NCBI GenBank assembly: GCA_028821475.1
Contig: JAPPGB010000008.1
Location: forward strand, 5,992-47,891
DNA: 41,900 nucleotides
Source: Spirochaetaceae bacterium
GTDB taxonomy: Bacteria > Spirochaetota > Spirochaetia > SZUA-6 > Bin103
Reading direction: 5' to 3'
Shown here piece after piece: positions 24,542 to 27,826 of this stretch (the stretch's first letter is position 1; the number at the start of each line of letters is the position of its first letter). Position numbers and translations under genes: made by a program. The notes beneath the pieces were generated by a model, which made no database searches, was not told the DNA's origin, and saw only the letters and a list, made by a program, of their open reading frames with translations.

Positions 24542-25768
24542 CTACTCGCCTCCGAGCGCGGCGACCGCATCCGCGATCATCGCCAGCGCTTCGTCTATTT
24601 CCGCCTCGCTGACGATCAGCGGGGGCGCCAGCCGCAGCACGTCGTCGCCGGAGCGCAATGCCAGCATGCCGGCGTCGCGCAGCGCGGGCACCAGCTTGGC
24701 GATCGCCGGTGCGCCGTCCACCTCTCCGGTCACCGTGACGCCGGCCAGCAGGCCGGCGCCCTTGACCGTGCCAAGCATCGGACTGGCGCCGGCGAGCTTG
24801 CCAAGCGCGTCGTGCAGGTAGCGCCCGCGGCTGCGCACGGTTGCCACGAACTCGGGCGCGGCAACGGTGTCCCACACCAGGTTGCCGACCGCGCAGGTCA
24901 CCGGGCCGCCACCGAAGGTAGTGCCGTGGTCACCGATGTGCAGCAGCGCATTGATCTGCCGCGGAATCAGCGTCGCGGCCAACGGCAGGCCGCCGCCGAG
25001 CGGCTTGGCAAGCGTGATCAGGTCCGGCTCCAGTCCCACCAGGGAGCTGGCGTACAGCTCGCCGGTACGGCTCAGACCGGTCTGCACCTCGTCGGCGATC
25101 AGCATGATGGCATGCCGGCGGCACAGTTCATTGAGCTTGTGTGCGAACCGCTCGCTCATCACGTCGAGGCCGCCCTCGCCCTGCACCACCTCGACGATCA
25201 CCGCGCAGAACGAGTCGTCGAGGGTTGCGGCGGCGGCATCGGCGTCGTTGAAGGGCAAAGCGGTAACGCCGCCGACAAGCGGCGCGAACGGCTCCTGGTA
25301 CTTGTCGGTCGGCGTGCAGCTCAGCGCGCCCATGGTGCGGCCGTGGAACGCGCCGCTGAAGCAGGCGATGCGGTCCTTGCCCTGCTTGCCGCCGCGCGAG
25401 GCCAGCAGGCGCGCATACTTGAGCGCCGTCTCGTTGGCCTCCGATCCGCTGTTGGTGAACTGCACGTTGGCAATGCCGGCCCGCGCCGGCGCCGATGCGA
25501 TCAGCTTCTCCGCCAGCGCCAGGGCCGGCTCGGTTGCGTACAGGTTGGACACGTGGACCAGCTTGCGCATCTGGTCGGCCGCGGCCTGCGCCAGGTCGTC
25601 GCGCCCGTAGCCGAGTGCGTTGACCGCGATTCCGCCGCCGAAGTCCAGGTAGGACCTGCCGGCGACGTCGCTCACCCGGCAGCCGTTGCCGTGGTCGAGG
25701 ACCAGCAGTTCCGGAGTGAATACGCCCGGCATCGGGTGTTCGCTGACTATCGCACCATCTCGTTTCAT
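24542..25768 (-). CDS. argD: acetylornithine aminotransferase
   Basis: PLP enzyme making N-acetylornithine from its semialdehyde with glutamate. From the ATG at 25768, with a perfect AGGAGGT Shine-Dalgarno 6 bases upstream, it has 408 residues. Class III aminotransferase motifs: GRSYLDFGGGIAVNALGY, VQFTNSGSEANETALKYAR, FHGRTMGALS, MLIADEVQTGLSRTGELYA and LITLAKPLGGGLPLAA (Schiff-base Lys). HGTTFGGGPVTCAVGN comes near the C-terminal half. Its ATG shares one base with the argB stop (TAATG). A longer open frame extends over argB but is a shadow. Confidence 0.97.
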   Translation of the reverse strand: MKRDGAIVSEHPMPGVFTPELLVLDHGNGCRVSDVAGRSYLDFGGGIAVNALGYGRDDLAQAAADQMRKLVHVSNLYATEPALALAEKLIASAPARAGIANVQFTNSGSEANETALKYARLLASRGGKQGKDRIACFSGAFHGRTMGALSCTPTDKYQEPFAPLVGGVTALPFNDADAAAATLDDSFCAVIVEVVQGEGGLDVMSERFAHKLNELCRRHAIMLIADEVQTGLSRTGELYASSLVGLEPDLITLAKPLGGGLPLAATLIPRQINALLHIGDHGTTFGGGPVTCAVGNLVWDTVAAPEFVATVRSRGRYLHDALGKLAGASPMLGTVKGAGLLAGVTVTGEVDGAPAIAKLVPALRDAGMLALRSGDDVLRLAPPLIVSEAEIDEALAMIADAVAALGGE

Positions 25769-26619
25769 TACCGTACCTCCTGTGTCGGTTGCTGTGTTGG
25801 TTGCTTGGTTGCAGTGTCGGGAAGATCGTGATTGTGAGGGAGCATGGTGGTCCCGGCCGCCCCGGTCAACAGCCTCGCCAGGTCTCCGGGCGCGGCGAAC
25901 CGGCCGATCACCACCCGGCGCACGCCCTGTGCCAGGGCGTGCAGCGCGGCCTCGACCTTCGGAATCATGCCGCCGCCGATGGTCCCGGCGGCGATCTCCG
26001 CGGCCGCCCGGTGCGGCGTGAGCACCGCCAGCGCGGCGCCGTCCTTCAGAACGCCGGGAACGTCCGACAGGAACAGCAGGCGATCGGCGGCCAGCGCCGG
26101 CGCCAACCGCAGGGCGACCGCGTCGGCGTTGATGTTCACCGCCAGCGCCGGCGGTTGCACGCTCGTCGGAGCAACCACCGGCAGGTAGCCGTGCTCGACC
26201 AGCAGCCGCGGCAGCCGGGTGTCTACCTGTGCCACCGTCGCCGTGCGGTTGCCCGCGCCGGCAGCGGCGCCGGCCAGCGGTGCGCCGGTAAACATCGGTC
26301 CGTCCGATCCGCTCAGACCCACCGCACGCAGGCCCGCGGAACCGAGCACCCGTACCAGCCTCTTGTTGACGGCGCCGCACAGCACCATGTCGACGTACGG
26401 CATCTCCTCCGGCGTGGTAATCCGTATGCCGTCGCGAAACCGCGGCTCAAGCCCCAGCCGCCGCGACAGCGCGCTCACCTCGGCGCCGCCGCCGTGTACC
26501 AGCACGATGCGCGCCCCGCCCCGCGCCAGCGCGGCCAGCTCGCGCGCAAACGCGGTCAGTGACGGTTCGTGGTCGGCCGCGGCACCGCCGAGCTTGATCA
26601 CCAGCAGTTCGCCGTCCAT
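25768..26619 (-). CDS. argB: acetylglutamate kinase
   Basis: Phosphorylates N-acetylglutamate, usually the arginine-inhibited step. From ATG 26619 it has 283 residues starting MDGELLVIKLGGAAADHE. Amino acid kinase motifs: VIKLGG, ARIVLVHGGGAEVSALSRRLGLEPRF, NINADAVALRLAPALAADRLLFLSDVPGVL, and GGGMIPKVEAALHALAQGVRRVVI (family GGMiPKv.aa..A...GV). The first 12 residues of a longer frame would be encoded in the palindromic element and are left out. The C-terminal tail is Thr/Gln/Pro-rich from a small DNA repeat. The stop overlaps the argD start by one base. Confidence 0.95.
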   Translation of the reverse strand: MDGELLVIKLGGAAADHEPSLTAFARELAALARGGARIVLVHGGGAEVSALSRRLGLEPRFRDGIRITTPEEMPYVDMVLCGAVNKRLVRVLGSAGLRAVGLSGSDGPMFTGAPLAGAAAGAGNRTATVAQVDTRLPRLLVEHGYLPVVAPTSVQPPALAVNINADAVALRLAPALAADRLLFLSDVPGVLKDGAALAVLTPHRAAAEIAAGTIGGGMIPKVEAALHALAQGVRRVVIGRFAAPGDLARLLTGAAGTTMLPHNHDLPDTATKQPTQQPTQEVR

Positions 26620-26623
26620 GACG

Positions 26624-26789
26624 CTAGCAGCCCGTGGTGGAACCCGGCGTCGCACCGAGAGCGGCGAGGCGCCCGGCTGGCAAGGCGCGACGAACGAGCA
26701 TATCAGGGTATATGTGAGCGAGGAGCAACGCAGCCAGCCGGGATGGATCGCCGCTCGAATGCAGCCGGAGTTTCGCCACGGGCTGCTAG
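26624..26789. repeat. 166-bp imperfect palindrome (fold-back element) between argC and argB
   Basis: The ends are perfect 14-bp inverted repeats (ctagcagcccgtgg at 26624-26637; its complement at 26776-26789), and 18 of 20 bases match if extended. Inside, further complementary blocks stay in register: agcggcga (8 bp) and cccggctggc (10 bp) on each side, and catat/atatg at the centre around cagggt. The whole element can fold as one long hairpin. The right end contains the argC stop codon (complement of cta, 26786-26788) and the left end stops 4 bp before the argB ATG. No ORF. Size, terminal inverted repeats and a ctag at both edges resemble a MITE-like element; a second copy is not present in the window. 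Confidence 0.85.
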
Positions 26790-27826
26790 GCCTCTCCGTG
26801 CAGCGGCAGGGCCGAGCCTTCCGGCAGTCCGAAGCGCAGGTTCATGTTCTGCACCGCCTGCCCGGCGGCACCCTTGAGCAGGTTGTCGATGACCGAGAAC
26901 AGCACTACCTCGCGCCCGCTCACGCGCCACCCGATGTCGCAGCGGTTGGCGCCCCATACGTCGGCGGTCGCCGGGATGCGATCCCCGGCGAGGGCGACGA
27001 ACCGGCACCCGCCGTACGCTTCCTCCAGTATGCCGGCGACCCGCGCCGCGGCACCCGGCTCGCGCAGCGTGGCCACCGTGGTGGCCGCCAGGCCGCGCCG
27101 CATCGGCACCAGGTGAGGCGTGAACAGCAGGTCGAGATCGTCCGCCGCCGGGCCGAGTTCGCTGGCCATCTCGGCATGGTGACGGTGGCTGCGAGCCGGT
27201 GCGTACGCGGTAACGCTCTCGCTCAGTTCGGTGAACAGGTAGTCCGCGCTCACCTTGCGGCCGGCGCCGGTAACCCCGCTCATGGCATTCGCGATCACCG
27301 TGCCGCGCAGCACACCGGCCGCCGCCAGCGGCAGCAGCGGCAGCAACACCGCGGTCGGGTAACAGCCCGGGTTGGCGATGATCGACGCCTGCGCAATTGA
27401 CTCGCGGTGCCACTCGCTGAGCCCGTAGGCGGCGCTCGGCAGCAGGTCGGGGCGCGGCGGCGCCGTTCCGTACGCGGCCGCGAACAGTGCGTGATCGCGA
27501 ATGCGAAAGTCCGCCGCCAGGTCGATCACCACCGCCGAGTCGAAGTATGGGTCGGCGCCGGCCGCCGACTGCAACGGCGGCAGCGCGGAGAACACCACGT
27601 CGGTGGGGCGCCGCGCCGCCTCCTCGGCGCTTACCAGGTTGCCATCGCCGAGCTTCTCGGAGGCCGCGGTCGCCAGCCCGGCGAACGCCGGCAGCGCGGC
27701 GGCGAGCGGCTGACCGGCGCGCGACGAGGAAACGGCCACGATGGCGCTAACGGCGGGATGCTCGAGCAGCAGGCGCAGCAGCAGCGAGCCGGCGTAGCCG
27801 GTTGCGCCGAGTATGGTGGCGATCAC
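26786..27826 (-). CDS. argC: N-acetyl-gamma-glutamyl-phosphate reductase
   Basis: NADPH-dependent reduction of the argB product. 346 residues. The dinucleotide motif is MIATILGATGYAGSLLLRLLLEHP. VVFSALPP, VIDLAADFRIRD and the catalytic Cys motif IIANPGCYPTAVLLPL follow, then VSGVTGAG-like MSGVTGAGRKVS and SHRHHAEM (catalytic His region). FTPHLVPMRRGLAATTVATL and FSVIDNLLKGAAGQAVQNMNLRFGLPE end the family alignment. ATG overlaps the argR stop by 4 bp (ATGA). Its stop codon lies inside the terminal repeat of the palindromic element. No argJ follows. Confidence 0.97.
   Translation of the reverse strand: MIATILGATGYAGSLLLRLLLEHPAVSAIVAVSSSRAGQPLAAALPAFAGLATAASEKLGDGNLVSAEEAARRPTDVVFSALPPLQSAAGADPYFDSAVVIDLAADFRIRDHALFAAAYGTAPPRPDLLPSAAYGLSEWHRESIAQASIIANPGCYPTAVLLPLLPLAAAGVLRGTVIANAMSGVTGAGRKVSADYLFTELSESVTAYAPARSHRHHAEMASELGPAADDLDLLFTPHLVPMRRGLAATTVATLREPGAAARVAGILEEAYGGCRFVALAGDRIPATADVWGANRCDIGWRVSGREVVLFSVIDNLLKGAAGQAVQNMNLRFGLPEGSALPLHGEA

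Follow-up and report, generated by a model that had tools for sequence, protein, structure and literature searches.

What is a long fold-back sequence doing between argC and argB, in an operon whose genes otherwise abut or overlap? In the window, the whole stretch of 41,900 nt that was analysed, the identities of argR, argC, argB, argD and argG are confirmed with NCBIfam, and the tight junctions reported by the first-pass annotation hold (a 4-bp overlap for argR/argC, a 1-bp overlap, TAATG, for argB/argD, and 0 bp for argD/argG). That annotation offered two readings of the segment separating argC from argB: a MITE-type mobile element, or an RNA structure attenuating argB, argD and argG. The features of the locus are the following.

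26786..27826, minus strand: argC (TIGR01850)
26790..26796, minus strand: putative original argB Shine-Dalgarno sequence GGAGAGG, in the 3' end of argC (from the duplex energies with the anti-SD and the site as it read before insertion, CACGGAGAGGCCTAGCGTCATGG)
26786..26788, minus strand: argC TAG stop, rebuilt from the duplicated TA and the first G of the element
26787..26788, no strand: right TA target-site duplication, doubling as the TA of the argC stop (from the ends and the empty site of the congener G002)
26776..26786, no strand: right terminal inverted repeat CCACGGGCTGC
26627..26786, no strand: the fold-back (MITE-like) element proper, GCAGCCCG...CGGGCTGC, 160 bp (multi-copy in its own genome, absent at the orthologous site of G002)
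26667..26756, no strand: inner half GAGGCGCCCGGCTGGCAAGGCGCG ... AACGCAGCCAGCCGGGATGGATCGCCGCT, common to Desulfobacteria palindromes (75% Desulfosarcina plasmid match, pattern matches, joint alignment)
26627..26637, no strand: left terminal inverted repeat GCAGCCCGTGG
26625..26626, no strand: left TA target-site duplication (single TA in the G002 empty site; TA at the termini of young copies)
26617..26619, minus strand: start codon (ATG) of argB, the TA duplication being 5 nt away
25768..26619, minus strand: argB (TIGR00761)

The segment at 26624-26789 was correctly delimited in the first-pass annotation, including its perfect ends and strong fold. A perfect 14-bp inverted repeat, which counts the TA duplication and the flanking C/G, joins 26624-26637 (CTAGCAGCCCGTGG) to 26776-26789 (CCACGGGCTGCTAG), and its arms extend to 20 nt at 90% identity. 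One end supplies the argC stop (TAG, 26788-26786 on the minus strand), and the argB ATG at 26619 begins 4 bp beyond the other, as had been described. A 187-nt stretch folds at -111.4 kcal/mol; dinucleotide shuffles reach -79.0 +/- 4.3 (z -7.6), and 0 of 200 folds as well. Searching Rfam 15 gave no match above the gathering score (best 20.2 bits versus a threshold of 79). The mobile unit itself is slightly smaller than the annotated segment, a 160-bp imperfect palindrome at 26627-26786, the outer C and G belonging to a host CTAG site as the empty site of the congener shows. We conclude, with a probability of roughly 0.85, that the segment is a non-autonomous MITE-like fold-back copy inserted in the TA of the argC TAG after the split from this congener.

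The congener, G002, is a genome of the same genus whose argC is 92% identical, and it is the only one of the 148 relatives searched to hold recognisable copies. Its orthologous argC-argB junction is empty and reads GGCGAGGCG-TA-GCGCGATG, with a single TA; the occupied site here reads GAGGCC-TA-(160 bp)-TA-GCGTCATG. The flanks across the site are 85-86% identical between the two genomes. The empty site with its single TA thus defines the element as 26627-26786, accompanied by a TA duplication. Judged from these sequences, the element entered the argC-argB junction after the two genomes had diverged.

The own genome (5.73 Mb) yields 64 BLAST matches to the segment, ranging from 100% to 73% identity, with about 20 full-length copies among them (98% down to 73%). 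Full or partial copies number about 35 or more, and a search with the terminal repeats gives 89 matches versus 19 for the reversed control. The best-preserved copies are flanked by TA/TA, and elsewhere the duplications mostly differ by one-step transitions (TG, CA), though the ends and duplications of some degraded copies are uncertain. The element is short, lacks coding capacity, and carries terminal inverted repeats; its TA is doubled relative to the single TA of the empty site, and its many dispersed copies have empty sites in relatives. Two findings, the in-genome family whose copies keep their ends and the empty site in a close relative, bear out the MITE-type reading.

Size variants with the same ends are also present, some shorter (57-110 bp) and others longer (247 bp). 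The 247-bp form (L010:1505-1752 and L028:1338-1585, with parts in L020 and L026) carries about 87 extra bases (GTAGGAGTCTGTCGGGTTCCGACAGGCTCCTACGC...CCATTGGACGGCGGTTTCGGGGCG) at a constant position in the apical loop, and does so in copies that differ considerably in age; it could represent an ancestral subfamily of greater length, or one palindrome nested within another. At the other extreme, L037 and L043 hold very short palindromes that retain the ends (e.g. CTAGCAGCCCGTGGCGAAACTCCGGCTGCTAG), as if left by internal deletions between GGCTGC repeats.

The position of the argC-argB copy relative to the stop codon recurs across the family. Among 36 copies with both ends, 15 lie exactly on a stop codon, versus an expected share of 3-5% if all TAs outside gene interiors are considered. 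At 15 of the 17 junctions entered by a clearly coding frame, the stop consists of the junction TA plus G, versus a null of 1/3 for frame (p = 4e-6); the stop at L006-420, one of the 15, is read as TAA, the first base of the element having changed. Since the element starts with G whichever end is read, the argC TAG was rebuilt after insertion. A flank-joined search of G002 found further element-free sites at which a TAG or TAA was already present, as at argC: L036 (where it is TAA), L012, L030, L006, L039 (just below the coding-score cut-off used for the junction count) and L044 (where the G002 stop lies a few bases off in the alignment). L008 is occupied in both genomes.

The preference for stops is strong but not absolute, as two copies demonstrate. 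The L009 insertion lies about 8 codons before the original stop. The copy at L002:1502-1661 interrupts an ABC-transporter permease gene, of which the G002 paralogues read through the site, so that an insertion away from a stop is able to break a gene.

At 42 of 72 ends the TA has a C on its outer side, which suggests a CTAG-like target. CTAG is rare in this genome of 69% GC, with 33 sites in 115 kb, and stop codons make up 25-42% of the CTAGs outside gene interiors, a range set by gene-calling stringency and drawn from home-made gene calls over 115 kb with only about 26-28 such sites. The stop-codon preference would therefore follow from a CTAG-like target, the rarity of CTAG, and the large share of non-internal CTAGs that are TAG stops. 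Active targeting of stop codons is unneeded once CTAG rarity is counted; a CTAG-like target and the loss of gene-breaking copies would, on these small numbers, be enough for the excess. In the mechanism that we propose, the element would take the TA of a CTAG-like target and the G at either of its ends would restore a TAG stop; gene-breaking copies would be lost, and the rarity of CTAG would leave many of the others on stops.

The inner half of the element, GAGGCGCC-GGC-GGCAAGGCGCG / AACGCAGCC, consisting of a bulged neck (GGCAAGGCGCG / AACGCAGCC) and an apical hairpin, has a wider distribution than its ends. It is common to 157-bp palindromes abundant in Desulfobacteria. Distant BLAST searches gave one significant plasmid match, intergenic, in Desulfosarcina sp. 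BuS5 (75% over 90 bp), the other plasmid matches being at chance level. The pattern GGCAAGGCGCGN{30,46}ACGCNGCC occurs in 36 of 291 genomes of the Desulfobacteria class, often in many copies, and the reversed control gives 0 matches; a few of the Desulfobacteria matches (L176, L178, L186, L189) look like coding sequence. Local alignment of the inner halves scores 80, 68 and 38 for three Desulfobacteria subtypes, versus shuffled maxima of 27-28. The Desulfobacteria elements resemble ours in inner half, bulged neck and near-equal length (156-159 bp), and they too rebuild a stop codon at some junctions. They differ in their outer arms (GGGTTCGC...AAAAATAA, with ends GGG[TC]TCGC...AAAAATAA), which are unrelated to those of the own-genome elements, and in a duplication of three bases (TNA, as TTA..TTA or TAA..TAA) where ours is TA. 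A joint alignment of both families exhibits 33 pairs changed on both sides, versus 14.7 in shuffled and at most 17 in slid alignments. Such an excess indicates that pairing has been kept while sequence changed.

Outside these two groups the signal is sparse. Among 393 genomes of the own phylum, no convincing core turned up beyond the own genus: apart from the own genome, the core pattern gave single matches in six genomes, and the most core-like of them (L312) reads as coding sequence. The type-specific pattern GTGAGNGAGGAGNAACGC has no match in 20 named genomes of other groups nor in viral contigs, and phage records gave no match. Core matches in viral contigs are mostly chance, with one plausible case: L243:1715-2052 (IMGVR_UViG_2551306410_000001) carries convincingly the same neck (GGCAAGGCGCG...GTGCAACGCGGCC) in a hairpin with other outer arms (GGGCCTGTTCAC...), followed by further long palindromes. 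It is possibly a third taxonomic group with the neck structure. The inner-hairpin family is previously unnamed and new to the sources searched.

What moves such an element? That it is an ordinary IS-derived MITE, whose parent transposase of IS630 type (TA) or IS5 type (TNA) exists or existed in these genomes, has in our estimate somewhat less than an even chance. MITEs of this origin typically have terminal inverted repeats and a TA or TNA duplication; RUP offers a precedent, having been ascribed to IS630-Spn1 by matching ends and TA target (PMC2229807); and the genome still has two broken DDE_3 genes. However, none of the transposase loci examined (three DDE_Tnp_1 and the two broken DDE_3) has matching ends, and families that share their interior but not their outer arms are the opposite of what recognition of ends by one transposase would give. 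In the complete Desulfobacteria genome G250, paired terminal repeats lie almost only about 163 bp apart, with none at IS length. A 1.5-kb terminal-repeat pair in L171 was also considered as a parent IS and rejected: it encloses a beta-propeller-like gene, not a transposase.

In the reading preferred here, the candidate enzyme presumably recognises the element as a folded strand or cruciform during mobilisation. More tentatively, the own-genus and Desulfobacteria palindromes may form one hitherto unrecognised superfamily across phyla, defined by the bulged neck (GGC-AA-GGCGCG / AACGC-A-GCC) and not by the ends. Outer arms and duplication would then have been swapped between families, and mobilisation would proceed by folded-strand recognition, possibly by host machinery, and not through ends read by a parent IS.

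Several known repeats resemble the element in parts. ERIC/IRU sequences of Enterobacteriaceae (127 bp) are likewise imperfect palindromes of similar size with TA termini and scattered copies, co-transcribed in intergenic spaces, and the ERIC traits of a TA duplication and a long palindromic fold (PMC2229807) are found here as well. To the eye, the internal stretches GGC-GGCAAG and CAACGC are similar. ERIC differs in ends and length, and the literature examined ties it to no stop codon. Homology to ERIC was rejected: the local scores of seven ERIC copies against the own and Desulfobacteria elements fall mostly within the shuffled range. In an ERIC copy on a Citrobacter plasmid (L326), both arms (GGCGGCAAGGCAGCGAATC on the left, GACGCAGCCAACGC on the right) bear a resemblance to the neck motif that is not significant. 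Correia (CREE/NEMIS) and RUP elements are similarly MITE-like, with a TA duplication and long hairpin transcripts, and differ in ends and sequence; RUP shares its ends with an IS of the same genome, of which no counterpart was found here.

Whatever its source of mobility, the MITE-like copy would be mainly a passenger between argC and argB, one that may incidentally affect how argB is translated through a displaced Shine-Dalgarno sequence. Such an effect remains plausible because the insertion parts the putative GGAGAGG, which lay at a normal distance from the ATG in the pre-insertion sequence, from the AUG, now about 160-170 nt away. The predicted anti-SD duplex is also stronger at the argC end (-6.6 kcal/mol) than just upstream of the present argB AUG (-2.5 kcal/mol). 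On this basis the ribosome-binding site might be split, the hairpin looping out 160 nt so that argB translation depends on the fold: with 2 + 5 bases left unpaired by the outer stem, GGAGAGG would come within about 7 nt of the AUG, and genes 38 and 25 of phage T4 provide precedents for a hairpin between Shine-Dalgarno sequence and AUG (PMC3014915). Yet bridging has been shown there for spacings of 22 and 27 nt; here the loop is far longer, the spacing being about 170 nt and made up by a mobile element, and bridging is hypothetical. Moreover, part of the SD region is itself paired in the predicted fold, argB might be translated by reinitiation or by initiation without an SD, and an in-frame GTG lies within the element (26655). 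We regard a split site as possible but rather unlikely.

The second reading of the first-pass annotation, taken here as an RNA attenuator or processing hairpin under selection for setting the argRC : argBDG expression ratio, is improbable. It has in its favour a very stable fold in a tight operon, and ERIC and Correia elements are known to alter the stability of the mRNAs that carry them (PMC2229807, PMC10969869). However, the operon of the congener does without the element, and the same sequence stands at dozens of unrelated sites. We found no intrinsic terminator on either strand, no U-tract or terminator tail after the GC-rich stem, and no sigma-70-like promoter in the element. The copies of the own genome decay with little compensatory change, their two-sided changes being only slightly above shuffles (12 versus 8.4) with a covariation term near zero; little covariation within the genome is expected if single copies decay after landing. 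The attenuation reading was thus not upheld. A REP/REPIN-type palindrome moved by a RAYT (Y1) transposase can be dismissed as very improbable, since, although the element is repeated, palindromic and intergenic and the CTAG at its ends recalls tetranucleotide-tagged REPs, the 96% complete genome contains no Y1_Tnp gene (5 of 14 controls were positive) and REPs are 20-40 bp long (PMC3733652) versus units of 160 bp with a TA duplication here.

The MITE-like family presents a sequence rule for harmless settling in compact operons, namely a TA in CTAG combined with a G at both ends, under which the stop codon survives in either orientation. The inner structure shared with Desulfobacteria links palindromic repeats of two phyla and suggests that the fold is the thing recognised, and the question of what moves ERIC-like palindromes becomes testable outside enterobacteria. 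The argC-argB junction, for its part, is a natural setting in which to ask whether a Shine-Dalgarno sequence can be bridged to its start codon by a hairpin of 160 nt.
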